A DNA stretch of 64,000 bases from Pseudomonas sp. LRP2-20 (GTDB lineage Bacteria; Pseudomonadota; Gammaproteobacteria; Pseudomonadales; Pseudomonadaceae). Shown one piece after another: positions 21,181 to 38,543 of this stretch. A program made the position numbers and the translations under genes. Each line of letters opens with the position of its first letter. Position 1 is the stretch's first letter. Under the pieces are notes generated by a model. The model ran no database searches. It was not told the origin of the DNA and worked only from the letters and a program-made list of their open reading frames with translations. The stretch is taken from contig NZ_AP025944.1 of the NCBI RefSeq assembly GCF_024349685.1, positions 750,001-814,000 of the forward strand. Reading direction: 5' to 3'.

Positions 21181-21256
21181 GCCGGTGTAGCTCAGTCGGT
21201 AGAGCAGCGCACTCGTAACGCGAAGGTCGCAGGTTCGATTCCTGTCTCCGGCACCA
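21181..21256 (+). tRNA. tRNA-Thr (CGT), integration site of the genomic element
   Basis: 76 bases with acceptor GCCGGTG/CTCCGGC (one T-T mismatch), anticodon loop CTCGTAA with CGT, T-loop GGTTCGATTCC and encoded CCA. The gene is intact. Its 3' part (21234-21249) is repeated at 38528, marking insertion of the mobile element behind it. Confidence 0.96.
21234..21249 (+). other. attL, left attachment core
   Basis: TTCGATTCCTGTCTCC within the T-arm and acceptor stem of tRNA-Thr, identical over 16 bases to 38528-38543. Flanking bases differ at once on the left side. Confidence 0.9.
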
Positions 21257-21300
21257 GAGACCAGTTTCCAGAAGTCTATGACTGTCTACGAAACCCCCGC

Positions 21301-21329
21301 AAAGCCCGTCTAGAGCGGGCTTTATTGTT
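21301..21329 (+). terminator. Terminator-like hairpin after tRNA-Thr
   Basis: AAAGCCCG-TCTAGAG-CGGGCTTT followed by a T-rich stretch. It would end tRNA-Thr transcription before the integrase. Confidence 0.7.
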
Positions 21330-21365
21330 TCTGTCTGTCTCGTTTTGTCTCTGGGCATCTACGCG

Positions 21366-21390
21366 TTTTAGGGATATGGTTAGGGATATC
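21366..21390 (+). promoter_or_regulatory. Left AGGGATA repeats, probable integrase/AlpA arm sites
   Basis: Two tandem AGGGATAT units lie 16-45 bases upstream of the integrase start, plus an inverted CGTATCCCTAT at 21408-21418 overlapping the start codon. The same paired units recur 54-77 bases inside the right end (38451-38474), as expected for arm-type recombinase or Xis sites. Confidence 0.65.
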
Positions 21391-21416
21391 TCGGTTCGAC
21401 AAGGAAACGTATCCCT

Positions 21417-22706
21417 ATGGCGCGCACAGTGGTGCCTCTCACCGATCCCAAATGTGATGCGGCCAAGCCTCGGGAGAAGGATTACAAGCTGTTCGATGGC
21501 AAAGGCCTCTACCTGCTGGTGAAGCCGTCAGGGGTCAAGACCTGGCGTATGAAGTACATCAAACCTGATGGCCGTGATGGTTTAGCTACGTTTGGCAACT
21601 ATCCGGCGCTCGGCTTGAAAGCGGCCAGGGAGCGACGCGCTCAGGCGCTTGAGCTATTGGCAGCCGGGAAAGACCCCATCGAGCAGGCGCGCTTGGACAA
21701 ACAAGAAGCGGCTAACGCCCGGGCGAATACATTCCGTTTGCTTGCTCAGGAATGGCACGCGGCCTGCGCTCGTAAGTGGACGCCTGGTCATGCCTCCACC
21801 GTGTGGCGACGCATTGAATCCCACCTGTTGCCCACTCTCGGTGATCGTCCGGTCGCGGAGCTCAAAACACGGGATCTGCTTGTTCCGCTGAAAGCGGCGG
21901 AAAAGCGGGATACCTTGGATACGGCTGCACGCCTACGCCAGTACATGACGGGCATCCTCCGTATGGCGGTTCAGCATGGCCATCTGGATTTCAACCCTGC
22001 GATCGATCTGCAAGGCGCGACGGCCACCCGCAAAACAGCGCACCGGCCTGCTTTGCCATTCGAACGCTTACCTGAGCTTCTTCAGCGGATAGATGCCGAC
22101 AGCGGGCGCGGCCTGACTAAGCTTGCGGTGCAGCTGACCATGTTGGTGTTCATCCGCTCCAGTGAGCTCCGCTTCGCTCGCTGGGGAGAGATAGACATGG
22201 GGAGGCTGATGTGGGAAATCCCTGGCGAAAGAGTGGCTATTGAGGGTGTGAAGAACTCCTATCGAGGCTCCAAGATGAGCACGCCACACCTGGTACCACT
22301 CAGCCGGCAGGCTGTAGAGGTGCTGGAGAGAATTCGTAACCTCACTGGTCGTTTCGATCTGGTGTTTGCGGGTGACCACAATCATTGGAAACCGATGAGC
22401 GAGAACACCGTGAACAAAGCGCTGCGGCGAATGGGGTATGACACTAAAGCAGAGGTATGCGGCCACGGTTTTCGGACAATGGCCTGTTCCGCATTGGTTG
22501 AGTCTGGGCTTTGGAGTAAAGACGCTGTCGAACGACAAATGAGCCACCAGGAGAGAAACACGGTGCGTGCCGCCTACATCCACAAGGCTGAGCACATACA
22601 AGAGCGTAGGCTCATGGTGCAGTGGTGGGCTGATTACTTGGACGCAAATCGCAAGGAGGCGATCACCCCCTACGATTTTGCCCATGGGCGGTTGCCTCGT
22701 TCATGA
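21417..22706 (+). CDS. int: P4-type tyrosine recombinase (integrase)
   Basis: 429-residue site-specific recombinase. The N-terminal DUF4102 arm-binding domain (LFDGKGLYLLVKPSG...ATFGNYPALGLKAARERR) is followed by a core-binding SAM-like domain and the catalytic domain with the first Arg in FIRSSELRFARW, His350-x2-Arg353 in CGHGFR, and nucleophile Tyr387 in AAYIHKAEHIQERR. It lies just inside attL, transcribed away from the tRNA. AAGGAAA precedes the ATG. It should catalyse integration at tRNA-Thr and excision with an AlpA-type partner. Confidence 0.96.
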   Translation: MARTVVPLTDPKCDAAKPREKDYKLFDGKGLYLLVKPSGVKTWRMKYIKPDGRDGLATFGNYPALGLKAARERRAQALELLAAGKDPIEQARLDKQEAANARANTFRLLAQEWHAACARKWTPGHASTVWRRIESHLLPTLGDRPVAELKTRDLLVPLKAAEKRDTLDTAARLRQYMTGILRMAVQHGHLDFNPAIDLQGATATRKTAHRPALPFERLPELLQRIDADSGRGLTKLAVQLTMLVFIRSSELRFARWGEIDMGRLMWEIPGERVAIEGVKNSYRGSKMSTPHLVPLSRQAVEVLERIRNLTGRFDLVFAGDHNHWKPMSENTVNKALRRMGYDTKAEVCGHGFRTMACSALVESGLWSKDAVERQMSHQERNTVRAAYIHKAEHIQERRLMVQWWADYLDANRKEAITPYDFAHGRLPRS

Positions 22707-22781
22707 GACAGATGGGGTGGGAAATATCGAACAGGGATATTTGGGCAAATCTGGTTGAGGATGCTCAGCCTCTTCAAGGCA

Positions 22782-23007: not shown

Positions 23008-23241
23008 ATGATTGAAAGTCAAACATACGACATGCTTCTGAAACGTTATGGCAGCACGTGCTTACCGCTTGAGCTCGTGCGACAGCACTATCTTTCGCAC
23101 ATGGGGATGCCGGCGCTTCTCAGAGCGTTTGGCAAAGGGAGGATATCGTTGCGCGTAGTGAAGGGTGAGTGGGGCGGACGCATGCAACGGGTGGTATACC
23201 TTCACGACCTGGCTAGCTGGCTCGATCAAGGGAGTAATTGA
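23008..23241 (+). CDS. PrtN-like (pyocin activator family) DNA-binding protein
   Basis: 77 residues: MIESQTYDMLLKRYGSTCLPLELV, then YLSHMGMPALLRAFGKGRISLRVV and LHDLASWLDQGSN. The spacing of LLKRYG, LPLELV, LLRAFGKGRI and the closing DLASWLD agrees with PrtN/pyocin-activator proteins, small regulators that switch on R/F-pyocin genes in P. aeruginosa. In satellites such a gene may control excision or early genes, or respond to a helper. The assignment is by motif pattern. Confidence 0.7.
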   Translation: MIESQTYDMLLKRYGSTCLPLELVRQHYLSHMGMPALLRAFGKGRISLRVVKGEWGGRMQRVVYLHDLASWLDQGSN

Positions 23242-23428: not shown

Positions 23429-23436
23429 AACTAGCT

Positions 23437-23745
23437 ATGACAACTCGTAGCACTTCAAGCACCACCCATCTTGCACCATCAAGTCCAAGAGCTGACCTCG
23501 GTGACACGAACCCACTCGGCTTTGATCCAGCAACACGACTGATCCGCATAACAGATGTGGTCGCCCTGGTAGGTCTTGCGCGTCCGACGATCTATAAGCT
23601 GATGAGCCAGCCTGAAAGCGGTTTTCCCCAGCCAGTCAAACTTACGGATAGCACCGCTCGCGGTGCGCCTGTCGCTTGGGTCTTGTCTGAAGTTTTGGAC
23701 TGGACCCGCGCCCGCATTGCCGCTCGCGACAAGGTGGCGGCATGA
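23437..23745 (+). CDS. AlpA-family transcriptional regulator / excisionase
   Basis: 102 residues. After a ~33-residue Ser/Thr-rich leader comes the AlpA/MerR-like winged helix: RLIRITDVVALVGLARPTIYKLM...GFPQPVKLT...VAWVLSEVLDWTRARIAARD. AlpA/Vis proteins of P4-like satellites act as excisionase and regulator. A dyad overlaps its ribosome site. It overlaps the next gene by four bases (ATGA). Confidence 0.88.
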   Translation: MTTRSTSSTTHLAPSSPRADLGDTNPLGFDPATRLIRITDVVALVGLARPTIYKLMSQPESGFPQPVKLTDSTARGAPVAWVLSEVLDWTRARIAARDKVAA

Positions 23746-24077
23746 CACCAATCTTCCTGCCACACACCATCCTCGACGCGGTCGGAGTACTTGAAGGCGC
23801 CCGGCCTGCAGTGGCCATGGGACGTGATCGCCTACGCGCCTTGCGTGATCGTGCCATTTCTGAGGGCGCGCACGTTCTGCTCTTGGCCTGGCCGTCTCTG
23901 GAATGGGTGATGCTGGCCGTCGAGGTGCCATCGGGCGTAGTAATCGAAGACGCGCGGCAACTAATACCCAATCTGCTGGCCAATCCCGCTGCCTTGGAGC
24001 ACATGCGTTCAGAGTCTCGCAATGGCCAGCATCTAAGTTGGCTGTCTCTGGTCCGCCCCGTCGCCGCTAAGCACTAA
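23742..24077 (+). CDS. Hypothetical protein coupled to alpA
   Basis: 111 residues, start overlapping the alpA stop (ATGA). The sequence (ALRDRAISEGAHVLLLAWPSLEWVMLAVEVPSGVVIEDARQLIPNLLANPAAL) is soluble, with no motif I recognise. A GC-rich hairpin (24085-24107, AACGCC/GGCGTT) follows the stop. Probably an accessory early protein of the satellite. Confidence 0.6.
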   Translation: MTPIFLPHTILDAVGVLEGARPAVAMGRDRLRALRDRAISEGAHVLLLAWPSLEWVMLAVEVPSGVVIEDARQLIPNLLANPAALEHMRSESRNGQHLSWLSLVRPVAAKH

Positions 24078-24172: not shown

Positions 24173-24201
24173 TTGCTCCTATCAAATCGAGGCGCTATGC
24201 T
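24173..24201 (+). promoter_or_regulatory. Sigma-70-like promoter for the C4-like RNA
   Basis: TTGCTC (24173-24178), 17-base spacer, TATGCT (24196-24201). It would start transcription near 24208, just ahead of the structured RNA. Confidence 0.55.
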
Positions 24202-24207
24202 CCGTCT

Positions 24208-24290
24208 GTCGCTGCAAATTCAGTGACCGGGTTTGGCGACCCGATATACTTGGCGCATAGGCGCCCCATCCGACAGCAGGCGCTTTTTTT
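24208..24290 (+). ncRNA. C4/P4-CI-like antisense (immunity) RNA, copy 1
   Basis: About 83 bases. Hairpin 1 is CGGG-TTTGGCGA-CCCG (24229-24244). Hairpin 2 is GGCGC/GCGCC (24252-24265), or alternatively the downstream GCGCC pairs GGCGC before a seven-T run (24284-24290), giving a terminator. The loop sequence TTGGCGA is complementary to TCGCCAA at 24363-24369 in the leader of the early operon, and a second hairpin with the same TTTGGCGA loop lies at 24393-24408. This loop-to-leader pairing resembles how P4 CI and P1 C4 RNAs repress replication or antirepressor genes. A near-copy is at 38693. Confidence 0.65.
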
Positions 24291-24442
24291 GTGTCTGCCG
24301 TTTCGTGTTATGGCGGCTGTGTGTGGGAGGCCTTCGGGCCTGCCGGGTTCCAAGTTCCCGGTTCGCCAACCTGCGCACAGCTGCCACCCAAAATCGTTTG
24401 GCGACGATCAGTGGCAGCTCCAGCTAACTTGGAGTACCACAC

Positions 24443-24601: not shown

Positions 24602-24894
24602 GATCTGCATCTAAGGGACTTGAGGGGCGTCTCCCCGAAGACCTTCTATCTGTATGCGCCACCAATGCTGCCGGTGTGCCAATTGATGCCATCACCGCGG
24701 CTTGTTCCCGCGTCGACGCCGTTTTGCACTTACTCATGGCGCAGTTCAATTCCGGTCCGGATGTTGAGAGGCTGTCTGACTCAGTAATAGCGAATGTTAT
24801 TTGGGACGTCCAAGGCACCGTGGGACTGATTCGGTCGTTGGCTTTGCATGGCGATAGGACCACGTACCAATTGGTGCATGGAGGGGGGGAATGA
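24598..24894 (+). CDS. Hypothetical protein (98 residues) upstream of the primase
   Basis: Starts MRSASKGLEGRLPEDLL and continues with a helical region (ITAACSRVDAVLHLLMAQF...VIANVIWDVQGTVGLIRSLALHGDR). It overlaps both neighbours by four bases (ATGA on each side), a three-gene coupled unit ending in the primase-helicase. The IWDVQGTVGLIRSLA segment is loosely echoed in the product of 39062-39292. Function unknown. Confidence 0.65.
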   Translation: MRSASKGLEGRLPEDLLSVCATNAAGVPIDAITAACSRVDAVLHLLMAQFNSGPDVERLSDSVIANVIWDVQGTVGLIRSLALHGDRTTYQLVHGGGE

Positions 24895-27767
24895 GTAAGC
24901 GCCCCAGCTTCGCCGAAGTAAAACACGCCTCCCTCCAGTCAATCGAGCAAGTCCTTTCTAATTGGTTGCCAGGCGGCAAACGGGTAGATGGTGGCAAGGA
25001 ATACACAGCCCCCAACCCTACACGAGCTGACAAACATGCAGGCTCGCTTAAGGTCAACTTGGCTAAAGGCACTTGGTGCGACTTCGCAACCGGCGACAAA
25101 GGCGGTGATCTGATTGACCTGGTGCGCTACCTTGATCGCGGCACCGATGTAGAGGCTTGCAACAAACTAGCGGCCTTCCTCGGCGTTGAGGCGTCCATTA
25201 GCACCAATGTCGCACCATCCACTGGCCACGCTCAAAAGTCAGAGTGGGTGCCAGTGCTACCCATTCCTGACCAAGCAATGCAGAGGGTGCTGCAAAAACA
25301 CAAGCAGCACGGTAAACCCTCCAAAGTTTGGATCTACCGTGAGGCCTGCGGTCAGGCGCTTATGGTGCTGTATCGCTTCGACCTCGGCCCGGATGAGAAC
25401 GGCAGGTCGCGCAAAGTCTTCGCGCCCCTCACCTGGTGTAAACACTCTACTAACGGCTCGCTGGCTTGGCGCTGGCAGGGCTTATCGGAGCCACGCCCGC
25501 TCCTGCGCCTTGATGACCTGGCTAAACGTCCTTCGGCACCAGTTGTATTGTGCGAGGGTGAAAAGGCCGCCGATGCCGCTGCCGAGCTGTTGCCCGAGCA
25601 TGTTGCCACCTGCTGGCCTAACGGGACGAACTCTTGGCAGAAGGCTGATTTCGCGGCGCTAGCCGGGCGTGACGTATTGCTGTGGCCAGATAACGATGCC
25701 CCAGGTTTGAAGTGCATGGATGCCTTGGCCGATCACCTTCGGAAGCTTGGAGCTGCCTCGGTTCAGACGGTAGCTTTGACTGTATTCAGGCAACTTCCTA
25801 GTATGGACGGTGAGCGCTCCACTTTCGCGCCGGGCGGTGAGTGGCGCGAAGGTGACGATGCGGCGGATGCCCAATCCAAAGGTTGGACAGCCCAACACTT
25901 GTCGGAGCTGCAACGCACCGGTGAGCTGTTTGCCCTCGCACCTGCCGCCACGCCCAACCCCACCAAGCAGAGCAAAGCCACTGACCAGGCCAAGCCTCAA
26001 TCCGAAAAGAAAACCGCCCCGGCCCCGAGCGGCTTTCGTGTCACAAAGGATGGGGTGTTCTATGCCGGTGAGGATGGCGAAGCAAGACCGGTTTGTTCAC
26101 GGCTAGAGATATTGGCTCGCACCCGTGACGAAAAGGGCCATGGCTGGGGCCTGCTGGTGGAGTTCGATGATCCCGACGGTGCTAGCAAGCGCCTTAACAT
26201 TCCGGCCAGGGCAATGGCGGGCGACTTTGGCAAGGAAGTGCTCGCGCCACTGGTTGATATGGGGCTGCGCCTGGCACCCGTGCGCACTGCTCGCAATTCG
26301 CGCAACGACCTACAGAGCTACCTGCAAGGATATGACGGTTCCGAGCGCGCCCGCTTGGTCACTCGCCTGGGCTGGCATGGGAATGCTTACTTAGTGCCGG
26401 ATCGGCAGATCGGTGCCAGCACTGAATACCTGCACTTCTACGAAGCCGGCACCCAGCTCCCGCCCATTACCCAAGTTGGAACACTAGAGCAGTGGCAACA
26501 GCAAATCGGCACGTTGTGCGTGGGGAACAACCGCCTGACATTCGTCGTGTGCGTAGCTTTTGCTGGAGCGGTGCTGCATTTGCTTGGGCATGAATCAGGC
26601 GGTTTCCACCTTTATGGCGATAGCTCAGGCGGGAAGACCACCCATTTACAGGTGGCCGCTTCGGTTTGGGGTGGGCCGCGCCTGGTGCGCTCCTGGCGCT
26701 CTACGGACAACGCCCTGGAAAGTATCGCGGCGGCGCACTCGGACGGATTGCTGGTGCTCGATGAGATCGGGATGTGCGACCCACGGATCATCGGGGAAAC
26801 TGTCTACATGCTCGGCAACGGCACCGGCAAGGCGCGGGCCAATGATCGGGGCATGAGCGGGCGCCAAGTTCAGGAGTGGCGTTTGCTGTTTCTCTCCACC
26901 GGAGAAAAGACCCTTGCGCAGCACATGGCCGAGGCAAACAAGGACCTTAAAGCAGGTATGGAGGTGCGCCTACTTGCTGTCCCTGCCGATGCCAGTAAAG
27001 GGCTTGGACTGTTCGAGGAGCTGCATGGCTTCGACGATGCCGCCGCTCTGTCAGATGCGCTCAAAGCTCGGGTGACCAAGTTCTACGGCTCGCCTGCCCT
27101 CGCATTCCTGTCGGCCCTCTGCGACCCAACCAAGTTGCGCGCCTATACAGCCATGGTACGCAGCACCGTGGAGCGCTTCACTGCTGAAGCGCTCCCTGCC
27201 AGTGCTAGCGGCCAGGCCCAGCGTGCCGCAACCCGCTTCGGTTTGGCGGCGGCTGCGGGGGAGCTGGCCACCGCCCTGGGCGTTACGGGGTGGCCAGATG
27301 GTTTGGCGCTCGACTCCGCCCGCGTATGCCTGAATGCCTGGTTAGCTGAGCGGGGTGGCGCTGGAAACATGGAAGGTGATGCGATTCTCGCACGCCTGCG
27401 CCAGGTGATTGAGCGTTTTGGGGAGAGCCGCTTTACACGCTGGGAATCGACCGCTGCCAAGGTAGATGAGCACGGCCCCCGCACTATTGACCGGCTCGGC
27501 TTTCGCAAGTCGATGGAGCACGGCATGGGTGACACGTCGCACACGACGACAACCTATTACGTGCTTCCCGAAGCTTGGCGCTCTGAAATTTTCCGAGGCA
27601 TGAACCTCAATGCAGTGAACAAAGAGCTGCTGAGGCGTCGGGTATTAGAGCCAGGCAAAGATGGCAAGGCTTCCACCTCTGTGCGCCTGCCCGGCCTCGG
27701 ACTACAGCGCTGCTACGTCGTCGTGACGATCCCTGAACCGGCTGAGAACGAAGCACAGGCCGCCTGA
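24891..27767 (+). CDS. Toprim-DUF927 primase-helicase (P4 alpha-like replication protein)
   Basis: 958 residues. The N-terminal primase-like region (AEVKHASLQSIEQVLSNWLPGG...WCDFATGDKGGDLIDL) is followed by a Toprim domain with acidic motifs CEGEK (221-225) and DND (267-269). A Pro/Lys-rich linker leads to a DUF927 helicase domain with Walker A GDSSGGKT (576-583) and Walker B LLVLDE (Asp624-Glu625). Architecture fits a phage or satellite replication protein that binds iterons, unwinds and primes. It closes the coupled early operon. This is the main evidence that the element can replicate autonomously. Confidence 0.92.
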   Translation: MSKRPSFAEVKHASLQSIEQVLSNWLPGGKRVDGGKEYTAPNPTRADKHAGSLKVNLAKGTWCDFATGDKGGDLIDLVRYLDRGTDVEACNKLAAFLGVEASISTNVAPSTGHAQKSEWVPVLPIPDQAMQRVLQKHKQHGKPSKVWIYREACGQALMVLYRFDLGPDENGRSRKVFAPLTWCKHSTNGSLAWRWQGLSEPRPLLRLDDLAKRPSAPVVLCEGEKAADAAAELLPEHVATCWPNGTNSWQKADFAALAGRDVLLWPDNDAPGLKCMDALADHLRKLGAASVQTVALTVFRQLPSMDGERSTFAPGGEWREGDDAADAQSKGWTAQHLSELQRTGELFALAPAATPNPTKQSKATDQAKPQSEKKTAPAPSGFRVTKDGVFYAGEDGEARPVCSRLEILARTRDEKGHGWGLLVEFDDPDGASKRLNIPARAMAGDFGKEVLAPLVDMGLRLAPVRTARNSRNDLQSYLQGYDGSERARLVTRLGWHGNAYLVPDRQIGASTEYLHFYEAGTQLPPITQVGTLEQWQQQIGTLCVGNNRLTFVVCVAFAGAVLHLLGHESGGFHLYGDSSGGKTTHLQVAASVWGGPRLVRSWRSTDNALESIAAAHSDGLLVLDEIGMCDPRIIGETVYMLGNGTGKARANDRGMSGRQVQEWRLLFLSTGEKTLAQHMAEANKDLKAGMEVRLLAVPADASKGLGLFEELHGFDDAAALSDALKARVTKFYGSPALAFLSALCDPTKLRAYTAMVRSTVERFTAEALPASASGQAQRAATRFGLAAAAGELATALGVTGWPDGLALDSARVCLNAWLAERGGAGNMEGDAILARLRQVIERFGESRFTRWESTAAKVDEHGPRTIDRLGFRKSMEHGMGDTSHTTTTYYVLPEAWRSEIFRGMNLNAVNKELLRRRVLEPGKDGKASTSVRLPGLGLQRCYVVVTIPEPAENEAQAA

Positions 27768-27857
27768 ACCACTACCTCTAAATCCACGAGGTAGTGTCGG
27801 CAACATATGGCCTTGCCAGCCTCGCACATAACCACTTCCAATCATTAGGTGTTGATC

Positions 27858-28715
27858 ATGAAAGAACTAAAAAAGCAGCGCGACGAACTGATTGCAGAAC
27901 GTGACTCTCTTGAAGACAGTATTCCGGACCTTCGAGCCGCGTGGAAGGCAATACCGAGTAACTGGAACCATCATGGCAATTGCATTGGCAGCCCCGAGGG
28001 AACGGCGGCTATGAATAAGCTTTCCAGCGCAGAAGCTCGTTTGCGCAGTATTCCTGGTGCTATTGAGCGAATTGAACGCGAGATCAGCTATCAGGAAAGC
28101 TTGGCGAATGCGAAGCAGGCCAAGACAACGGCTCGTCAGGTCATGTCCGATTCAGTTAAGACGGTAACTTCACTGGAGAGCACTCGCACACTTGTTTTTG
28201 AGCGCCTGCAAGCGATCCAAAAAGAATCAAATCTAGCCATCGAGAAGGCGCAGCAAGCTGAGATTGAGGCTGCGAACCTCTACGCCCGCAACGTTGCTAC
28301 CGGTAACAGTGAGGGTGAAAAGGCTGCAAGCACCGCGATGGAGAGAGCTAGCATCTTGCTCATTGAGGCTGATGAACATGCAAGGCGCCAAGAACTGATT
28401 GTCGCTGCATTGCAGGCGGAAATTGAGGCGCTCGATGCTCAGATCTCCAAGGCTAAGCAGGAGTCTAGCCAAGCTCAGGACAGCGCCCTACGCGCAGCCG
28501 CTTTGGCCCTCGGCGATGAATGGAATCGCTTGGCCAAGCAACTTGCCGCTGTGGGCTCTCGAATTCTCGCCGCAGACCATCATCGAGGTTGCGGGGGCAT
28601 GATGTTGTCAGGCCTGTCGATCCCGCTCTTCGGCCCCTCGGCCAGAGAGCTCGACCGCGATGATGTGCTAGAAGGCGCTAAAGGCATCACCCCAATAGAC
28701 CTGATCGAAGCGTAA
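27858..28715 (+). CDS. Coiled-coil hypothetical protein
   Basis: 285 residues, dominated by long charged helices (KELKKQRDELIAERDSLEDSIPDL; GAIERIEREISYQESLANAKQ; LQAEIEALDAQISKAKQESSQAQ), with a short C-terminal Gly-rich hydrophobic patch (GCGGMMLSGLSIPLFGPSA). No signal peptide or enzymatic motif was seen. It follows the primase by 90 bases and ends at a terminator, so it is the last gene of the satellite core before the cargo. It could be a structural or DNA-transaction accessory, or a defence factor; nothing in it decides between these. Confidence 0.7.
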   Translation: MKELKKQRDELIAERDSLEDSIPDLRAAWKAIPSNWNHHGNCIGSPEGTAAMNKLSSAEARLRSIPGAIERIEREISYQESLANAKQAKTTARQVMSDSVKTVTSLESTRTLVFERLQAIQKESNLAIEKAQQAEIEAANLYARNVATGNSEGEKAASTAMERASILLIEADEHARRQELIVAALQAEIEALDAQISKAKQESSQAQDSALRAAALALGDEWNRLAKQLAAVGSRILAADHHRGCGGMMLSGLSIPLFGPSARELDRDDVLEGAKGITPIDLIEA

Positions 28716-28720
28716 CCCCG

Positions 28721-28753
28721 AAACAGCCCGCAGATGCGGGCTGTTTGTTTTTG
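28721..28753 (+). terminator. Rho-independent terminator closing the satellite core
   Basis: AAACAGCCCGC-AGAT-GCGGGCTGTTT stem (11 bp) followed by GTTTTT. It isolates replication genes from the cargo. Confidence 0.92.
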
Positions 28754-30776: not shown

Positions 30777-30960
30777 AGAGATTCCTCATCTTTGGAGGTG
30801 GGTGCTCATGGTATAAGGCTCAGCGATTGCAGCCAGGCAGAGCCTCACCCCTAGCGATTGGTTCTGCAAATGCATCACAGGTCTTTTAGTTCGCTGTCTC
30901 ATCTGAATCTGGCAATCAGCTTAAAAACTTTGCGTTCGCCAACCGCTTCTGAGGCGGGTA

Positions 30961-31392
30961 CTAACTGATGGCAGGTCGCGCCAAACCCTCAAGCGTGCGA
31001 TGGAGCTCTTGAAGGCCTTGAGGTGTGAGCTGGCACGCAGTTCTGATCTTGTCGGTGATGCTACGAAGCTCATCCTCCATGCCACGGGCATGCATCGTGA
31101 GGTCTATCAGCACTCGACGCTCATCGGAGGCATCACGTGTGCGTGTGATCACTCCGGCAGCTTCCAACCTTTTGAGTAAAGGTGTAAGCGTGCCGGTCTC
31201 CATGTCGAGGCGTTCACATAAATCGCTCACAGATTGAGGCGACCCATTCAACAGCTCCAGCGTGACCAGGTACTGCGAAAATGTGAGGCCCAGTGGTTCG
31301 AGGAACGGCTTGTGCAACCGAACCATCCGGTTCGCGGCAGCGTTGAGCGCGAAGGAAAGCTCTGTGGCCACGCTTCGTTGCGTCAAACTCAT
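30961..31392 (-). CDS. MarR/OhrR-family transcriptional regulator
   Basis: 143 residues with the MarR winged helix: FSQYLVTLELLNGSPQSVSDLCERL, METGTLTPLLKRLEAAGVITRTRDASDERRVLIDLT. The region GTLTPLLKRLE...DERRV is typical of OhrR, but the N-terminal redox Cys of OhrR is replaced by Phe (ELSFALNAAANRM), so peroxide sensing by that residue is unlikely. A palindrome overlapping its promoter suggests autoregulation and control of the two reductase-like genes downstream. Confidence 0.88.
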   Translation of the reverse strand: MSLTQRSVATELSFALNAAANRMVRLHKPFLEPLGLTFSQYLVTLELLNGSPQSVSDLCERLDMETGTLTPLLKRLEAAGVITRTRDASDERRVLIDLTMHARGMEDELRSITDKIRTACQLTPQGLQELHRTLEGLARPAIS

Positions 31393-31410
31393 ATATGTAG
31401 CCTGCTATAA

Positions 31411-31454
31411 TGTAGTGTGCTACACAAATTATGCTCAGCCATTCCCGGTGTCAA
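31411..31454 (-). promoter_or_regulatory. MarR promoter with overlapping operator palindrome
   Basis: On the minus strand TTGACA (31454-31449) and CATAAT (31433-31428) are 15 bases apart. TGTAG-TGTG-CTACA (31411-31424) lies directly downstream, and another TGTAG half-site is at 31396. A regulator bound there would block initiation. Confidence 0.6.
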
Positions 31455-31455
31455 C

Positions 31456-31776
31456 AGCTTCTGAGGCTGCCGGCCTTTTTCCAGATGAGAGGTCACTAGA
31501 ATGGCAGCGGGCAAATAGCTCTTGAGGACAGAATTTGTGCCTGAAGGCAATCGAGAGGCTTTGCGTCCTTAAGCGGTGAATGAACCGCTACCGTGCAGGC
31601 ATGAGCTTGTATGTGGCCAGAGCGAAAGCCTCTCAGGTCAAGTCTCTTCGAGTTGTCGCAACGAAACGCCCGTTCTTGAGGTTTATGGCGTTCCCTGGCA
31701 ACCGTTCTTAGTGTCCAGGGGGCGGTACCCCAGCAATGGAACCGTTCAGCTTCCAATAGGGCAGGTCTTGTTTGAG
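31456..31776. other. Gene-free stretch between the two cargo operons
   Basis: No supported gene or structured RNA. A 94-codon minus-strand frame lacks a ribosome site and family resemblance. Confidence 0.4.
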
Positions 31777-32718
31777 TCACTCGTATCGGTCAATGGTTGA
31801 GTCAGGGCGCCTCACCAAAGCGTCTAAGCCTTGCGGCGACTGGTCAATTCCCGCCCTGGCCCAGAACGTTTCTGCAGACTGACTGAGGGTTGCTTTTGGC
31901 CGGGTCAAATGAATTTCCAGGGGAATGTCCCAGCTTTCATCGAGCGCCCGGATCAAACGCCCGTCCAGTATCTCCTGCTCCGTAAGGCTCTTGGGTAGCC
32001 ACGCCACGCCCTTACTTTCCAAGGCCATGGACATCAACACCGCTGCAAGGTGACTGGTGAACAGGGGCTTGAGGTGAAGGTAATCTTCTTTGCCGCGCAG
32101 TCTGTGCGCGACGATACGGCCCAGTCCGGATTCATGGGTGTAGGCGAGGTAAGGCAATGCTGCAGGAGAAGTACCGAAGTCAGCGCGAGCACTGGCAAGC
32201 GGAACGAGAGTATCTTCGCCTACCTTCTTGCTGGTGAACTGTTCGGGTGCCAATAGTGGCGGAACGTCGGGGTGGCGGTGGCATAGCAAAAACTGAACCT
32301 GGCCATGAATCAGCATTTGCTCACAAACGGCCATGCTATCTGAGTGCAGTTGAACTGCCTCGATTGGGGCACCGCTTTCGGAACTCCGGAGCCACTTCGG
32401 GAAGAATGTAAACGAGAGGGAGTGTGTCGCTGCGAATTGTAGTGACCTGGCTGCTACCCCTGCGACCTCTTGAGCTTCGCTGCGTATTCGGTACAAGGAT
32501 CGGGCCGCTTCCTGGGCACTGGGCAAGATATGTCTTCCAGCCTCGGTGAGCGTAGCTCCGTGTGGTGAGCGCACGAACAGCTCAACTCCCATCCAATTCT
32601 CCAGAGAGCGGACTCTGCGGCTGAAGGCCGGCTGGGTTACGTGTCGCGCTTCGGCAGCCCGCACGAAGCTTCCGTACTCCGCCAGCGCTGAAAGATCTTC
32701 TAGCCAAACAAGTTCCAA
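31777..32718 (-). CDS. LysR-family regulator, divergent from the tartrate operon
   Basis: 313 residues. The LysR helix-turn-helix WLEDLSALAEYGSFVRAAEARHVTQPAFSRRVRSLENWMG starts at residue 5, followed by the linker and a periplasmic-binding-like effector domain (SLQFAATHSLSFTFFPKWL...GVAWLPKSL). The N-terminal pattern resembles the HypT/YjiE branch. It is transcribed away from the dehydratase gene across 99 bases, the classic arrangement for a LysR activator of the adjoining catabolic operon. I infer that tartrate or a related acid is the effector. Confidence 0.88.
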   Translation of the reverse strand: MELVWLEDLSALAEYGSFVRAAEARHVTQPAFSRRVRSLENWMGVELFVRSPHGATLTEAGRHILPSAQEAARSLYRIRSEAQEVAGVAARSLQFAATHSLSFTFFPKWLRSSESGAPIEAVQLHSDSMAVCEQMLIHGQVQFLLCHRHPDVPPLLAPEQFTSKKVGEDTLVPLASARADFGTSPAALPYLAYTHESGLGRIVAHRLRGKEDYLHLKPLFTSHLAAVLMSMALESKGVAWLPKSLTEQEILDGRLIRALDESWDIPLEIHLTRPKATLSQSAETFWARAGIDQSPQGLDALVRRPDSTIDRYE

Positions 32719-32817
32719 GGGCCATGCCTCCTGTGCATAGGGTCCGGCATTAATAGCATTGGGCGAGCGCTACCTCAAAGCATAACGTGGGGCCACATAC
32801 AACAAGAGGAACCCGTC

Positions 32818-33987
32818 ATGCGTATCGTCGACATCCGTGAAAAAACCGTTTCCATTGCCTCGCCAATCGCCAATGCCTATATCGATTTTTCCAAGATGAC
32901 CTGCTCGGTCGTCGCTGTTGTCACAGATGTGATTCGCGACGGTAAGCCGGTCATCGGCTATGGCTTCAACTCCAACGGTCGCTATGGCCAAGGCGCTTTG
33001 ATGCGTGACCGCTTCCTGGCGCGTATCACTGAAGCAGACCCAGAGACTCTCATCGACCACGAAAACAACAACCTGGACCCGTTTGCCATCTGGAAAACCC
33101 TGATGACCAACGAGAAACCAGGAGGTCACGGTGAGCGCTCTGTCGCCGTGGGTACCATCGACATGGCGGTCTGGGATGCTGTAGCAAAAATCGAAGGAAA
33201 ACCGCTGTACCGCTTGCTCGCTGATCGTTACCGCAACGGCGTCGCCGACGATAAAGTCTGGGTGTACGCAGCCGGCGGCTACTACTACCCTGGCAAAGAT
33301 CAAACCAAGCTCAAAGCCGAGATGCAGAGCTATCTCGACCGCGGCTACGACGTCGTGAAAATGAAGATCGGCGCGGTCCCGCTGGACGAGGACATCCGCC
33401 GTATCGAAGCCGTGCTTGAAGTGGTTGGCGACGGCCGCCGTCTGGCCGTCGATGCCAATGGGCGCTTCGATCTGCAGACCGGCATCGCCTACGCCGAAGC
33501 CATCAAGAAGTACAACCTGTTCTGGTACGAAGAGATCGGTGATCCGCTCGACTACGCGCTGCAGGCTGAGCTGGCAAATCACTATGAACTGCCTATGGCC
33601 ACTGGCGAAAACCTGTTCTCTCATCAGGACGCCCGCAACCTGCTGCGCCACGGCGGTATGCGACCTGATCGTGACTATCTTCAGTTCGACTGCGCGCTGT
33701 CTTACGGCCTTGTCGAATACATGCGCACCCTCAAAGTGATGGAAGAAATGGGTTGGTCTTCCCGGCGCGTTGTACCCCACGGTGGCCACCAGATGTCGCT
33801 CAACATTGCCGCAGGCCTGCACCTTGGTGGTAACGAGTCGTACCCGGATGTGTTCCAGCCGTTCGGCGGCTTCGCGGACGGCATCAAGGTTGAAAACGGC
33901 TACGTCGGCTTGCCCGACATCCCAGGTGTGGGCTTTGAAGCCAAATCCGCCTTGTACGCAGTGATGCGTGAGCTGGGTGAGGGCTGA
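32818..33987 (+). CDS. tarD: D-tartrate dehydratase-like enolase-superfamily enzyme
   Basis: 389-residue member of the mandelate-racemase group of the enolase superfamily. The sequence closely resembles the characterised D-tartrate dehydratase of Bradyrhizobium (same length, NEKPGGHGERSVAVGTIDMAVWDAVAK, YAAGGYYYPGK). Catalytic residues align: KMK at 181-183 with the base at Lys183, metal ligands Asp212, Glu238 and Glu264, and His321 in VPHGGHQMS. It would convert D-tartrate to oxaloacetate. AGAGGAA precedes the ATG. First gene of the cargo operon with carrier and decarboxylase. Substrate assignment is by memory of the family, not a search. Confidence 0.85.
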   Translation: MRIVDIREKTVSIASPIANAYIDFSKMTCSVVAVVTDVIRDGKPVIGYGFNSNGRYGQGALMRDRFLARITEADPETLIDHENNNLDPFAIWKTLMTNEKPGGHGERSVAVGTIDMAVWDAVAKIEGKPLYRLLADRYRNGVADDKVWVYAAGGYYYPGKDQTKLKAEMQSYLDRGYDVVKMKIGAVPLDEDIRRIEAVLEVVGDGRRLAVDANGRFDLQTGIAYAEAIKKYNLFWYEEIGDPLDYALQAELANHYELPMATGENLFSHQDARNLLRHGGMRPDRDYLQFDCALSYGLVEYMRTLKVMEEMGWSSRRVVPHGGHQMSLNIAAGLHLGGNESYPDVFQPFGGFADGIKVENGYVGLPDIPGVGFEAKSALYAVMRELGEG

Positions 33988-34089
33988 TCATCCTCGGTGT
34001 GCGGTCTCTGAAGAAGAGGCCGCAGTACCAGGCGGCGCGCAGCGCCGCCAAGCCACATGCCCATCACAAAAATAAAATGAGGTGCTTTC

Positions 34090-35397
34090 GTGGAAATCTC
34101 CAAATCCCGCTGGTACAGCCAGCTGTATGTGCAAGTGCTGATCGGCATCGTGATCGGCGCGGCAATCGGTTACTTCTTACCCGACATCGGCGCCAAGCTC
34201 CAACCCTTCGCCGATGGCTTCATCAAACTGATCAAGATGCTCTTGGCACCGATCATCTTCGGTACTGTTGTTGTTGGTATCGCCAAGATGGGCAGCATCA
34301 AAGAGGTTGGCCGAATTGGCGTCAAGGCGCTTATCTACTTCGAGATACTGTCGACCATTGCCTTGGTCGTCGGCCTCATTGTGGTTAACATCGTTAAACC
34401 CGGCGAAGGCATGAACATCAATGCCAACGCCCTCGATGGCAGTGCCATCAGCAAATACAGCCAAGCCGCGAGTGAACAAGGCGGCACGATCGAATTCTTC
34501 CTCAATATCATCCCGCATACCTTCGTCGGCGCTTTCTCCAACGGCGTAATGCTGCAGGTGATCCTGCTTTCTGTCTTGATGGGCGTCGCTCTGGTGCAGA
34601 TGGGTGAAACCAGCAAGCCGCTGATCAATACCATCGACTTGTTCCTTCAAGGCCTGTTCAAAATCGTCGCAATGGTCATGCGCCTCGCTCCGATCGGCGC
34701 GGGTGCCGGCATGGCATTCACCATTGGCAAATACGGTATCGGCACGTTGCTGTCACTCGGCCAATTGCTGGTCGCACTTTATATCACCACTCTGATATTC
34801 ATTGTGGTCGTGCTCGGTGCCGTCGCCAGATGGTCCGGAATGCCGCTGATGCAGTTCCTTCGTTACTTCAAAGATGAAATTCTCATCACCCTCGGCACGT
34901 GTTCAACCGAAGCCGTGCTACCGAGAATGATGGTGAAACTAGAGAAGCTCGGCTGCAAGAAATCGGTGGTCGGCATGGTGCTGCCTACGGGATACACCTT
35001 CAACGCGGACGGTACCTGCATCTACCTCACAATGGCTGCAATCTTCATCGCCCAAGCGACCAATACACCGCTGACATTCATGGATCAGATGATTCTGTTG
35101 GCCGTATTCCTGCTGACTTCCAAAGGCTCGGCTGGTGTTGCGGGTGCGGGGTTTGTAACGCTGGCTGCAACGCTTACAACTATCCATTCCATTCCGCTGG
35201 TAGGCCTTGTGCTGCTGCTGGGCATTGATCGGTTCCTCAACGAAGCGCGGGCGGTGACCAACCTGATCGGTAATGGCATCGGCACCATCGCGATCGCCAA
35301 GTGGGACAACTCGTTTGATGTCGAAGCTTGTGAACGAGAAATCGCAGCTATGAAAGAAGAAAAGGCGGCAAGGAAGGCCTTGCTGGCGCACAAGTGA
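34090..35397 (+). CDS. DctA-type dicarboxylate:cation symporter
   Basis: 435-residue DAACS-family inner-membrane carrier. Visible features: Ser/Thr-rich reentrant loop LGTCSTEAVLPRMMVKLEKLGC, substrate-binding LPTGYTFNADGTCIYLTMAAIF, and TSKGSAGVAGAGFVTLAATL. The GTG start has GAGGTG five bases upstream. Its place between the dehydratase and oxaloacetate decarboxylase genes suggests it imports tartrate (or a similar C4 dicarboxylate), although DctA homologues commonly take succinate, malate and fumarate. Confidence 0.92.
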   Translation: MEISKSRWYSQLYVQVLIGIVIGAAIGYFLPDIGAKLQPFADGFIKLIKMLLAPIIFGTVVVGIAKMGSIKEVGRIGVKALIYFEILSTIALVVGLIVVNIVKPGEGMNINANALDGSAISKYSQAASEQGGTIEFFLNIIPHTFVGAFSNGVMLQVILLSVLMGVALVQMGETSKPLINTIDLFLQGLFKIVAMVMRLAPIGAGAGMAFTIGKYGIGTLLSLGQLLVALYITTLIFIVVVLGAVARWSGMPLMQFLRYFKDEILITLGTCSTEAVLPRMMVKLEKLGCKKSVVGMVLPTGYTFNADGTCIYLTMAAIFIAQATNTPLTFMDQMILLAVFLLTSKGSAGVAGAGFVTLAATLTTIHSIPLVGLVLLLGIDRFLNEARAVTNLIGNGIGTIAIAKWDNSFDVEACEREIAAMKEEKAARKALLAHK

Positions 35398-35513
35398 ATC
35401 GCCCTCACTTCCGGTCATCGCGCTTGAAGTCGGCGATGATCGGTAGTGATCTGGTTTCTTTAGCCCCGCAAAGCGTGCTCTGCACCAGCTGAATGAATTT
35501 GATGGAGCCGAAT

Positions 35514-36389
35514 ATGATCGAACGATCGCATCATGAATTGCGCAAGGCGTTTGGTGATTTGCTTCAAGGACATGTCTGTAAATTTGCTGCTTCCGTATTC
35601 GATCCCATCTCGGTGCGTATGGCATCCGACCTTGGTTTCCAGGTGGGTATACAGGGAGGGTCTGTCGCCTCGCTTCAAGTGCTTGGGGCACCGGACATTG
35701 CACTCCTGACGCTTGATGAATATGTCGAGCAGGTCACCAGAGTTGGGCGTGCGAGCCAAATCCCTATCATTGCTGACGCTGACCATGGCTTTGGCAATGC
35801 GCTGAATGTCATGCGCACAGTCAGTGAGTTGCAGAAAGCCGGCGTTGCAGCGTTGACTTTGGAAGACACCCACCTACCGGCGAAATACGAAGAGCATTCG
35901 CCGGTGCTGATCGGAGGGGAAGAGGCAGCAGCCAAGATATACGCTGCTCGATTTTCCCGCTCGGATGATAGCCTCAGCATCATCGCCAGAACGAACGTGG
36001 CCGCTACCACCTTAGAAGACTCTATCGCTCGTACTGCGGCCTATCAGAAAGCGGGTGCAGACGCTATCTGCTTGGTTGGGGTCAAAGATTTCCATCACCT
36101 GGCAGCACTCACGGAACACCTCACCACGCCGATCATGCTTATCAACTACGATAATCAGGCGCTTAGCGATGTTGAGAAGCTTAGTGCTGCCAATGTGCGC
36201 ATCGTGGTCAATGGGCATGCCCCTTATTTTTCTGCGATCAAATCGATCTACCAAACACTGCGTGAGCAAAGCGGTTCACAGGGTTGCGAGCTCTCCCTCC
36301 CTGAACTGATTTCGAAATACACACGCGTTGAGAGATATCGAGAGTGGACAAAGACGTATCTGAAGGTGGGGCACGACTCACCACGTTGA
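35514..36389 (+). CDS. Oxaloacetate decarboxylase-like (PEP mutase/isocitrate lyase superfamily)
   Basis: 291 residues. Beginning MIERSHHELRKAFGDLL, it resembles P. aeruginosa PA4872, a characterised oxaloacetate decarboxylase. Mg-binding Asp88-Ala-Asp90 in IIADADHGFGNALNV and EDTHLPAKY (Glu117-Asp118) are intact; SVASLQVLGAPD and the C-terminal VVNGHAPYFSAIKSIYQTLRE are also shared. It would turn oxaloacetate from the dehydratase into pyruvate and CO2. The ATG at 35514 is chosen for GGAG (35504-35507) and for alignment with PA4872; 35493 is an alternative. Confidence 0.85.
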   Translation: MIERSHHELRKAFGDLLQGHVCKFAASVFDPISVRMASDLGFQVGIQGGSVASLQVLGAPDIALLTLDEYVEQVTRVGRASQIPIIADADHGFGNALNVMRTVSELQKAGVAALTLEDTHLPAKYEEHSPVLIGGEEAAAKIYAARFSRSDDSLSIIARTNVAATTLEDSIARTAAYQKAGADAICLVGVKDFHHLAALTEHLTTPIMLINYDNQALSDVEKLSAANVRIVVNGHAPYFSAIKSIYQTLREQSGSQGCELSLPELISKYTRVERYREWTKTYLKVGHDSPR

Positions 36390-36516
36390 GAAACCCAACA
36401 AAGATTCTTTGGCACGCTGCCCGCTTAGCTCGCCCATTGATGAAACCACCACACAGCAGCCTGCCGCCCGCCGAGCCCTCTGAGTGGGCATGCAAGCCGT
36501 CGTTTCTGGAGCGACA

Positions 36517-36750
36517 GGTGTAATTCTCTACAACAGGTTGTAACAGAAGCTGCGCAGGCCGCGACCCAATTCCAGCAGCTAGCTCTGGACAATGAAGGTC
36601 CGCTAAGGGTCGATAGCGGCCTACCATGGTTACACCGGATCTGTTGTTACACTGCTAGGGCAAAGCGAAGGCTCGAGCGTGTATCACTGTTTTTTTCTTT
36701 AAGAACAGTGGGTTGTGCGGTGTCGTTACACCTATTACACCTGTTACACA
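36517..36750. repeat. Right iteron cluster (GTTACACC), candidate crr
   Basis: Copies of the left-cluster octamer or its complement: 36517 (GGTGTAAT), 36629-36636 (GTTACACC), 36646-36652 (GTTACAC), 36725-36732 (GTTACACC), 36734-36741 (ATTACACC), 36743-36750 (GTTACACA). The last three are spaced exactly nine bases apart. A CACTGT...ACAGTG dyad with a T-rich centre lies at 36685-36710. The gap 36390-37101 has no supported gene. Confidence 0.65.
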
Positions 36751-36922
36751 GCTTTGGATCCGTAATCATCTAGCAACCCCATGCCCCTAGTTGGTCGTGC
36801 CTTCAGCGGCTGAGGCATTCCCCACCTCCCGGATCCTAGGAGCCGTCGGGGACCCTGAGAGATGTGGCGAGATACGGGGCAGGAAACCCGCGATCTTTTG
36901 TTAGCGGCTGATCTGCCAGCTT

Positions 36923-36957
36923 AGTGAACTGGTCAACCTGGTGAACAGCGGTGAATT
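36923..36957. repeat. GGTGAACA-type repeats
   Basis: AGTGAACT (36923), GGTCAACC (36931), GGTGAACA (36940) and GGTGAATT (36950) occur at 8-10 base steps. GGTGAACA is, from memory, the complement of the P4 alpha-protein iteron TGTTCACC. Adjacent to the right GTTACACC cluster. Confidence 0.45.
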
Positions 36958-37101
36958 GTTCGACTTTTTTAACACCGGCTGGGTTGGTTTCTCTGGATCA
37001 GGTGACGTTCCCAGCTCGCTGCGCATTTGCCGAGCTTGGGATATGCTCGATCTCTGGTGGCGCGGGCAAGGAGCGCGTGCCCGGAATTGGAAGACTCATG
37101 C

Positions 37102-38427
37102 ATGACCGACTCCCTAGCTGACTTGGACACGCTGGTACTCAGGTGCCGAGCGGAGCGTTCGAGAGACTATGTTTCGGAATCAATCCAGTGCTACAAGGCT
37201 GGCGCGTACAGGTCAGCCATTGTTAACGCCTGGATTGCGGTCGTATTCGACCTAGTCGATAAAATCCGCGATCTTGCCCTTGCAGGTGATGCAAAAGCGC
37301 AGCGCATCAACAGTCGCTATGAGACCTACATCGACCAGATCAATGCGGGCAATGACCAAGGTGTGAAAAACGCCTTGGAATTCGAGCGGACGATTATCGG
37401 TACGTGTGGTACGGATCTGGGCTTCTTTGACCACCAGCAAATGCGTGATCTTCAGCGCCTTCGCGAAGATCGACACCAATGTGCGCATCCTTCATTTCAG
37501 TCTGCAGGGATTCCTCACCGGCCGAATGCTGAGCTTGCTCGCCTCCACCTCCGTAATGCGGTAGAGCATGTGTTGTCACAGCCACCTATCCAGGGGCGCG
37601 CCGCTATCGCTGAGCTGCTCACCACCGTTGCCTCTGACTATTTCCCGAGGGATCACCACCAGGCATCGATTGCACTACGCCAAACCCCATTGGCGAACCC
37701 GTCCGAAGCCCTCGTTCGTGGCTTGGTTGACTCGCTCATCTTCGGATTTGCTCAGCCAGATAGTCCCGTGACTGGGAAAATCCAAGTCGGTGCGGTGCTG
37801 TCGGTGCTGCTCGATTCCCATCGAGCGATTGCTGAGCCTAGGATCTCCCAGCAATTGAGTACGCTAATCAGGCAGGTAGGAGACCCAGGATTGCCAGCAG
37901 TTGCCCGACTGGTAGCGGCGACACCTGAAATGGCCGGTTTGATTGATGAAGCTGCTCGTGTGCGGATGGCGGAGTTCCTTCGCAGTGGACCCGAAGCTGA
38001 GGTAATGCCGGCCCTGGCGGTTGGGAGACATCCGACGTTGGCTGCCGCGGCGAACCAGAGAATTCAGGCATTGGGGACCGACCGTCTCTCTGTTGCGATC
38101 CAGGAGCATGACATAGGTGCGTTGGCGAAGGAGCGGTCGCTCCAACTGCTATCGGAGTCGCGCAGCTGGCACACTTCAAATGACGTAATCGAGAAGTTGA
38201 TCACTCCTCTCTTCGATACGCTCACTCGCGAGGATCTGGAGCGCATCATCAGAATGCCTAGAGAAACCGGTGCAGACCTGCCCGGCTCTACCATGTATGG
38301 ACGTCTCCTCAGTCAGGTCGATCGCTTAGGAGTGATACCTGTGGATGAGCTCGATCCGCTAGTGACCGAGTATAATGGACAGTTTTTCGCAGAGAACCTC
38401 CAGCGGGCTCGGGAGGGAGCGGCATAG
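37102..38427 (+). CDS. HEPN-like protein, candidate defence RNase
   Basis: 441 residues of no recognised named family. The first ~165 residues look like a HEPN fold: helices with YKAGAYRSAIVNAWIAVVFDLVDKIRDL and then REDRHQCAHP, in which Arg124-x4-His129 fits the RNase motif R-x4-6-H. The remainder is helical and repeat-like (ALSVLLDSHRAIAEP, LPAVARLVAATPEMAGLIDEAARV, LAVGRHPTLAAAANQRI). It stands alone near the right end of the element, the usual place for phage-defence genes. The upstream in-frame TTG at 37027 is less likely. Function inferred only. Confidence 0.7.
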   Translation: MTDSLADLDTLVLRCRAERSRDYVSESIQCYKAGAYRSAIVNAWIAVVFDLVDKIRDLALAGDAKAQRINSRYETYIDQINAGNDQGVKNALEFERTIIGTCGTDLGFFDHQQMRDLQRLREDRHQCAHPSFQSAGIPHRPNAELARLHLRNAVEHVLSQPPIQGRAAIAELLTTVASDYFPRDHHQASIALRQTPLANPSEALVRGLVDSLIFGFAQPDSPVTGKIQVGAVLSVLLDSHRAIAEPRISQQLSTLIRQVGDPGLPAVARLVAATPEMAGLIDEAARVRMAEFLRSGPEAEVMPALAVGRHPTLAAAANQRIQALGTDRLSVAIQEHDIGALAKERSLQLLSESRSWHTSNDVIEKLITPLFDTLTREDLERIIRMPRETGADLPGSTMYGRLLSQVDRLGVIPVDELDPLVTEYNGQFFAENLQRAREGAA

Positions 38428-38450
38428 TCGCCAAGGGGGGCAGATTGGGC

Positions 38451-38474
38451 TTTAGGGATATGTATAGGGATACG
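38451..38474 (+). promoter_or_regulatory. Right AGGGATA repeats, probable integrase/AlpA arm sites
   Basis: TTTAGGGATATG followed by ATAGGGATACG, matching the paired repeats near the integrase (21367-21390 and inverted at 21408-21418). It lies 54 bases inside attR. Confidence 0.65.
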
Positions 38475-38527
38475 TTTGAAGGCTGAAGGCATCATTATCC
38501 AGTGTTCACGGGGCCAAGTCTGCATTA

Positions 38528-38543
38528 TTCGATTCCTGTCTCC
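38528..38543 (+). other. attR, right attachment core
   Basis: TTCGATTCCTGTCTCC, identical to tRNA-Thr bases 21234-21249. The sequence then diverges (CCCACAT in place of GGCACCA). Confidence 0.9.

Follow-up and report, generated by a model that had tools for sequence, protein, structure and literature searches.

Described relatives and limits of the island

The systems closest to the element studied here, a 17.3 kb island inserted at a tRNA-Thr gene of Pseudomonas sp. LRP2-20, are P4 and the P4-like satellites, the phage-inducible chromosomal islands (PICIs) of Gram-negative bacteria, the satellite phiAH14b and the Pseudomonas islands I23, I44 and I55. The window, i.e., the whole stretch analysed, covers 64 kb (750001–814000 of a one-contig, 6.03-Mb genome), and coordinates below are window positions. 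A component list for P4-like satellites has been published (PMC8628076, excerpt). Gram-negative PICIs, as described in the excerpted texts of PMC6092414 and PMC10111431, carry int and alpA, an immunity RNA and a primase in one direction, together with accessory genes and, as a rule, no structural genes of their own. phiAH14b (KU708005), a 16,812 bp satellite of Pseudomonas sp. ANT_H14, was reported to be packed in full-size helper capsids (PMC4936722, excerpt). I23, I44 and I55 combine an integrase and AlpA with defence cargo and have no autonomous transfer genes; I55 is moved by a jumbo phage, and I44 holds an operon of about 14 kb for metabolism beside its defence genes (PMC12595487, excerpt).

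The LRP2-20 element is probably an integrated phage-satellite-like island, from a Pseudomonas family combining features of P4 with those of Gram-negative PICIs, and carrying a captured D-tartrate pathway. It lies between two exact copies of a 16-bp repeat, TTCGATTCCTGTCTCC, starting at 21234 and 38528.

21181..21256, + strand, tRNA-Thr(CGT), the integration target, with attL contained in its 3′ end (ARAGORN, Rfam)
21234..21249, + strand, attL copy of the 16-bp repeat (exact repeat search)
38528..38543, + strand, attR copy of the 16-bp repeat (exact repeat search)

Repeats and tRNA had been pointed out in a preliminary description made from the sequence alone, and both are confirmed. No third copy occurs in the 64-kb window even with 3 mismatches allowed, and the same 16 bp bound the tRNA-Thr elements of G003, G091, L049 and L069 (a 17-bp match there). 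The G+C content is 50–60% inside the element, compared with mostly 60–68% in the flanks, and remains at 57–60% up to about 42 kb; alignment shows that the flank up to about 42 kb itself differs between relatives. Pseudomonas is the source of relatives of both window flanks and of the element core.

The criteria for P4-like satellites were taken from PMC8628076, and those for PICIs from PMC10111431 and PMC6092414. The element has the tyrosine integrase and AlpA (PF05930) of the P4-like list. A search of the whole genome for delta (PF04606) at E 0.001 found nothing, and Pfam scans of 18 element open reading frames (ORFs) and 10 small ORFs in the gaps detected neither psu (PF07455) nor epsilon (PF10554). 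P4 alpha (PF03288) is absent by Pfam, with DUF927 found instead, and gives no tblastn match and an hhalign probability of 0.2% (with a shallow, 3-sequence profile). Strict membership by these components fails, and the label 'P4-like' of the preliminary description does not hold in its published sense. The likeness to P4 (NC_001609) consists of the integrase (51% identity across 413 aa), AlpA (38% to P4 ORF88 across 87 aa), the C4 immunity RNA and the GGTGAACA origin repeats, whereas P4 is shorter (11.6 kb) and the helicase of the island has no detectable similarity to alpha.

The order and direction of int, alpA and primase are those of Gram-negative PICIs, as are the immunity repressor RNA between alpA and primase, the accessory genes and the lack of structural genes; in contrast, no terminase family was found in the element, and Pseudomonas is nowhere mentioned in the excerpted PICI texts (PMC6092414, PMC10111431). 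With phiAH14b the island shares Int (41%), AlpA (29%), a C4 RNA, a DUF927-type helicase, a similar length and the absence of structural genes, while phiAH14b has primase and helicase as separate genes and is annotated without a catabolic operon. I23, I44 and I55 resemble the family described here in being integrase and AlpA islands with defence cargo, but they differ in their tmRNA site, in alpA at the 3′ end and in their RadC/YqaJ genes, and the excerpted text does not use the words DUF927 or primase (PMC12595487). Judged from predicted genes, the anatomy is of the Gram-negative PICI or phiAH14b type, with Int, AlpA, C4 RNA and origin repeats shared with P4.

Core genes and candidate replication origin

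Three DUF927 proteins served as queries against the GTDB species genomes and yielded 108 confirmed loci, the best 80 of which ('the 80 loci') are counted below: 75 from Pseudomonas, 3 from Stutzerimonas, 1 from Azotobacter and 1 from a Sphingopyxis metagenome-assembled genome. Adding 19 further loci and the window gave a wider set of 100 loci, or 91 distinct ones by DUF927 DNA; some of the 19 repeat others. At E 1e-8, the integrase recurs in 75 of the 80 loci, AlpA in 78 and a 288-aa protein in 68; the absence of this core elsewhere, which the preliminary description had named as an outcome that would speak against it, is thus not what was found.

21417..22706, + strand, P4-type tyrosine integrase (Pfam PF13356, PF22022, PF00589)
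23008..23241, + strand, PrtN-like or excisionase-like small protein (PF11112, phrog_1300)
23437..23745, + strand, AlpA-family regulator/excisionase (PF05930)
23742..24077, + strand, 111-aa protein of no family (neither Pfam nor PHROG match)
24195..24391, + strand, C4 immunity-RNA leader (Rfam RF03163, RF01695)
24891..27767, + strand, Toprim-DUF927 primase-helicase, 958 aa (PF06048, E 4e-78)
27849..28715, + strand, 288-aa all-helical protein 3′ of the helicase (homologues in 68 of the 80 loci)
36837..36960, + strand, conserved noncoding GGTGAAC-type repeat block, candidate replication origin (alignments, comparison with P4 ori)

The P4-type integrase at attL, the antisense-RNA leader and the Toprim-DUF927 primase-helicase of the preliminary description were all borne out. 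AlpA and the PrtN-like protein, which it had also taken as defining parts, are both present, but the latter was found in only 2 of the 80 loci and hence lies outside the common core; homologues of the 111-aa protein occur in 18 (E 1e-8). Within the leader, Rfam places the a1/b1 targets at 24195–24247 (RF03163) and the C4 antisense RNA at 24306–24391 (RF01695). C4, which we take to be the immunity RNA of P4, was also detected by Rfam in the records of P4, phiAH14b and vB_Pae_U10, and all six sister tRNA-Thr islands have a C4 leader.

The primase-helicase matched no Toprim family of Pfam; a Toprim-like motif (CEGEK, WPDND) and the Walker A sequence GDSSGGKTT are invariant across three aligned homologues. 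Among PDB sequences it matches just two, 8tch ('Pathogenicity island protein') and 5dgk ('Active helicase'); in NCBIfam it has a weak match, under the cut-off, to the replicative helicase Cch1 of the staphylococcal cassette chromosome (SCC). The AlphaFold2 model of the 288-aa protein is all-helical (pLDDT 92). A Sid-like role was considered for this protein, but its 21 PDB-sequence profile matches at E ≤5 (best E 0.0045) are largely coiled-coil proteins. The profile has no match in six-frame translations of P4, phiAH14b or U10.

The repeat block lies about 9 kb downstream of the primase, close to attR, and 1.0–2.0 kb ahead of attR in the 15 loci where this could be measured (two being the same element). 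BLAST matches to it at E 0.01 were found in 70 loci, of which 51 were forward-oriented with enough flank for alignment. Its core is GTGAACaGGTGAACccGGTGAAC, often followed by an inverted copy; the window block has one mismatch to this pattern, and 0 of 100 shuffles match within two mismatches. The annotated 'ori type 1 repeat' of P4, TGTTCACC, reads GGTGAACA in 8 of the 11 copies read, and two P4 crr repeat copies stand 9 bp apart, the same spacing as in the window block, which is a candidate for the replication origin. In IMG/VR the pattern picked out one contig of 35.8 kb (L219), with a dense GGTGAAC array at 2700–3050 and, in the 6.5 kb fetched, no protein match to the element.

Scans of the 18 element ORFs (Pfam) or 9 of them (PHROGs), and of small gap ORFs (10 by Pfam, 10 by PHROGs), found no virion, packaging or lysis family, in agreement with the preliminary statement that head, packaging, capsid-size and lysis functions are not visible.

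A life cycle can be proposed from these parts. Int would insert the element at the 3′ end of the tRNA-Thr gene, and AlpA and the PrtN-like protein, going by their families and the att repeats, may aid excision. In the quiescent state, the C4 antisense RNA would hold the replication transcript short, as in P4. After release, the Toprim-DUF927 helicase-primase is predicted to start replication of the excised circle at the GGTGAAC block close to attR. Because no virion genes were found, the element would most likely spread inside the particles of some helper phage.

Cargo slot and probable D-tartrate genes

28748..36724, no strand, exchangeable cargo interval (alignments to L049, L052 and L038)
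29113..29847, − strand, F420_oxidored-like NAD(P)-binding protein (PF03807)
30030..30776, − strand, second F420_oxidored-like protein (PF03807)
30961..31392, − strand, MarR-family regulator (family scan)
31777..32718, − strand, LysR-family regulator, divergent from the operon (family scan)
32818..33987, + strand, probable D-tartrate dehydratase, TarD (PDB 4kem, 2dw7, 1tzz, 2dw6, E ≤1.1e-189)
34090..35397, + strand, DctA-type C4-dicarboxylate symporter (NF002461, above cut-off)
35493..36389, + strand, PA4872-type probable oxaloacetate decarboxylase (PDB 3b8i, 'PA4872 oxaloacetate decarboxylase', E 2.8e-99)
37102..38427, + strand, PD-T7-3-like defence gene (PADLOC PDLC04108, E 8.6e-29; start taken at M26 of the ORF at 37027)

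The left cargo junction is sharp: alignments to the P. putida islands L049 and L052 and to the island of G072 (L038) all end at 28747. On the right, alignment restarts at 36607 (L049) or at 36725 (L052, G072 and G091). By these alignments, cargo is swapped between fixed junctions at 28747 and 36607–36725, and the integrases of L049 and L052 are 98–99% identical to that of the window despite their other cargo. The interval makes up about 46% of the 17.3 kb and its genes look catabolic, which supports the earlier estimate that roughly half of the element is metabolic cargo. That account overlooked the PD-T7-3-like gene at the right end. This last gene of the element matches PADLOC only over residues 34–203, its N-terminal part, and has an 81% identical homologue near the right end of the G072 island.

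Defence-associated genes occupy the slot or its vicinity in five of the six sister islands at tRNA-Thr. L049 (P. putida NBRC 14671) carries an OLD-like TOPRIM ATPase and a UvrD helicase, a pair that appears Gabija-like by our own reading of the domains, together with an FRG protein (PADLOC PDC-S15). AbiJ and Fic are found in L052, SIR2 and HerA in G003, and AbiV in G091 as the final gene ahead of attR. L050 has a reverse transcriptase, whose position inside the element is likely only (attR not found). Of the two L069 proteins scanned singly, one is a ParA-like ATPase and the other matches no family. A wider census took the 16 of the 80 loci with attR found and their ORFs of at least 150 aa (66 proteins). 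ATPase, Gabija/Septu-like, Abi, methylase and signalling matches are among the families listed, not all of them defence; none of the 25 most-matched Pfam families (of 61) is a catabolic enzyme, a count that a rare metabolic gene could escape. Of the PADLOC families, the 25 most-matched of 483 were considered, several being ATPase models that perhaps match the same few proteins.

The cargo genes of the window stand apart from this, since TarD, DctA, the decarboxylase and the F420-like genes were found in none of the 80 + 19 loci (fetched stretches, some elements being cut short). The preliminary description had called catabolic cargo unusual for such a replicon; this agrees with the mostly defence-associated slots of the sister islands, but the metabolic operon of I44 is a precedent in print, so that the tartrate set is new cargo while metabolic cargo as such is not. 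Tycheposons insert at tRNA genes and carry metabolic cargo. Searches of the open-licence PubMed Central literature turned up no satellite described with a tartrate operon.

TarD aligns over its full length with chains 2dw6, 2dw7 and 1tzz, which we take to be the Bradyrhizobium D-tartrate dehydratase, and is identical to 2dw7 at all seven positions checked (K182, K184, D213, E239, E265, H322 and E341), among which the catalytic residues presumably lie. In both full-length similarity and key residues it agrees with the Bradyrhizobium enzyme, and it is probably a D-tartrate dehydratase; such an enzyme has been characterised from B. japonicum (PMC10079672, excerpt). Going by close homologues, the captured pathway would work under LysR control, with uptake by DctA, conversion of D-tartrate to oxaloacetate by TarD, and decarboxylation to pyruvate and CO2. 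The resemblance of the partner lyase to oxaloacetate decarboxylase fits oxaloacetate as the product of TarD. A 59% identical paralogue of the decarboxylase is encoded elsewhere in the host genome; for TarD, the whole host genome gives a single match at E 1e-100.

Across the genus, 31 of 199 genomes encode TarD, this one included, and operon DNA, whole or in part, in 58 of 398 genomes (again including this one), no other copy exceeding 86% identity. LysR and TarD occur together in all 20 other genomes read over 20-kb stretches; DctA adjoins the pair in 17 of them and the decarboxylase in 2, and 6 have F420-like genes close by. None of these stretches has a match to the integrase, AlpA or DUF927 protein of the element at ≥35% identity, so the locus was apparently complete already when the element took it up, perhaps together with neighbours. 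In three other genomes with both a TarD and a DUF927 match, the two are on separate contigs or more than 1.7 Mb apart. Plasmids carry TarD relatives too: 108 plasmid records match at E 1e-60, most often from Pantoea, and the ten genera listed do not include Pseudomonas. The 13 matching phage-collection records all stay below 60% identity.

Capture of the operon by a transposon was considered and rejected, the scanned ORFs containing no transposase family and the sole inverted-repeat pair being near-palindromic (search over 28600–37200, seed 11, minimum length 16). This pair is an 18-nt imperfect inverted repeat near both cargo junctions (28839–28856 and 36602–36619); the genome has a related copy at another place.

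Family distribution, site history and possible modes of spread

A tRNA gene lies upstream in 85 of the 100 loci: Leu(CAA) in 32, Arg(CCG) in 23, Met(CAT) in 22, Thr(CGT) in 7 and Leu(TAA) in 1. Four main tRNA sites are thus used across the DUF927 family, and the integrase match begins 161–196 bp past the upstream tRNA. DUF927 matches at E 1e-100 occur in 40 of the 199 genus genomes, some being fragments. An exact repeat of at least 13 bp allowed 22 of the 91 distinct elements to be sized; 20 of these measure 15.26–18.13 kb (mean 16.7, SD 0.75) and two about 9.5 kb. Extension of 14 loci to 40 kb gave 2 without an upstream tRNA, 9 without a repeat of at least 12 bp and 3 with one; the distances to the closest repeat are 18.1, 18.2 and 18.5 kb, and one of the three shows another at 29.0 kb. 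In L214-L215 (G159), DUF927 is matched again, though only in part, about 14 kb past the first match; together with a further att-like repeat at 29 kb this suggests a tandem element. The narrow size range of about 15–18 kb is suggestive only, and may point to a packaging limit.

The similar lengths of the sized elements also bear on how the island moves. It is unlikely that generalized transduction or a conjugative element carries it, with the replication genes serving only to maintain the excised circle. Such transport would fit the failure to find packaging, capsid-remodelling or terminase families in the element ORFs scanned, the three prophage capsid/terminase families without a match in the host, and the lack of relatives in IMG/VR. 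Against it stand those similar lengths, the absence of any relaxase family among the same ORFs, and the several core parts held in common with the encapsidated phiAH14b.

The integration site has a history of its own.

38680..38878, + strand, further C4 leader, beyond attR, probably the scar of a previous element (Rfam; 84% identical to the internal leader)

Lying just beyond attR, this leader shows that the site is layered, and is probably what remains of an element that occupied this tRNA before; similar DNA occurs in G045, G025 and L049. A small ORF accompanies it (38656–39258). G045, 88–95% identical over the aligned flanks, has no element, and a Fic gene lies between its tRNA-Thr and the C4 scar. 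In the more distant G025 the scar starts 429 bp past the tRNA with no element between. In G072, 31 integrase residues adjoin 54 residues of the end of the 288-aa protein (L038 1740–2156), and the locus looks like a deletion derivative, i.e., an immobilised island that has lost the core and kept the PD-T7-3-like gene.

The layered site and the apparent deletion in G072 would suit an LRP2-20 element that is likewise defective and fixed, its tartrate genes being an ordinary chromosomal locus. We regard this as quite unlikely, given that Int, AlpA and the helicase are open, that the repeat block is present in the window, and that nearly the same integrase occurs in L049 and L052 with other cargo. 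Nor do the cargo genes look ancestral, an outcome that the preliminary description had set against its own proposal: they are in none of the 13 relatives' sites read.

Several results weigh against a satellite-like island with captured D-tartrate genes. The preliminary description had proposed a comparison with empty tRNA-Thr sites, and no exactly empty one was found in the 13 relatives' sites (14 stretches), none of which joins the tRNA directly to the right flank; G025 comes nearest. For the 122 bp right of attR, no other of the 398 genomes matches beyond 37–46 bp. Of the 91 distinct elements, 54 gave no attR repeat and 15 no upstream tRNA, and the median room past the tRNA was 17.2 kb (about 16–19 kb in most loci), leaving the upper end poorly sampled, so that the size range is partly produced by the method. 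The helicase of phiAH14b is only 31% identical over 565 aa, the GGTGAAC pair of that satellite is only loosely similar, and nothing in it matches the 288-aa protein; within the family, a near-strict triple of the repeat block is found in only 47 of the 100 loci. PF05125, PF03354, PF05065 and PF04606 have no match in the host genome, other phage types not having been searched, and thus no helper was identified. With the DUF927 query, 102 IMG/VR stretches fit a pattern and none was confirmed as a relative. Finally, D-tartrate is assigned as the putative substrate by homology only. Enolase-superfamily enzymes vary in substrate and DctA is a general C4-dicarboxylate carrier, yet it is very unlikely that the operon acts on another hydroxy-diacid, in view of the full-length alignment of TarD, its seven conserved positions and a partner lyase that fits an oxaloacetate product.

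If the island is a satellite, a broader and tentative suggestion is that these widespread Pseudomonas elements, with a DUF927 replicase acting on P4-type origin repeats in the absence of P4 alpha, form a size-limited (about 15–18 kb) phage-borne shuttle that can be loaded with complete catabolic pathways instead of defence genes; a helper phage could then confer growth on D-tartrate in one step. Satellite cargo has so far been discussed mainly as defence and virulence genes. If this is true, a catabolic operon in the defence slot would connect satellites with the way in which D-tartrate use spreads among pseudomonads; satellite transfer could be tracked through a simple selectable trait, growth on D-tartrate. 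The repeat block and the 288-aa protein provide testable handles on the replication of the family and on a possible exploitation of helpers.

Outside the island, the right flank holds a further variable insert, a tautomerase/LysR/GFA block at 40225–42091, which is present in G077 and missing from G045, where 40173 continues to 42570. In the left flank, five tRNA genes are clustered at 13680–14123, with Pro(TGG) and Lys(TTT) repeated.

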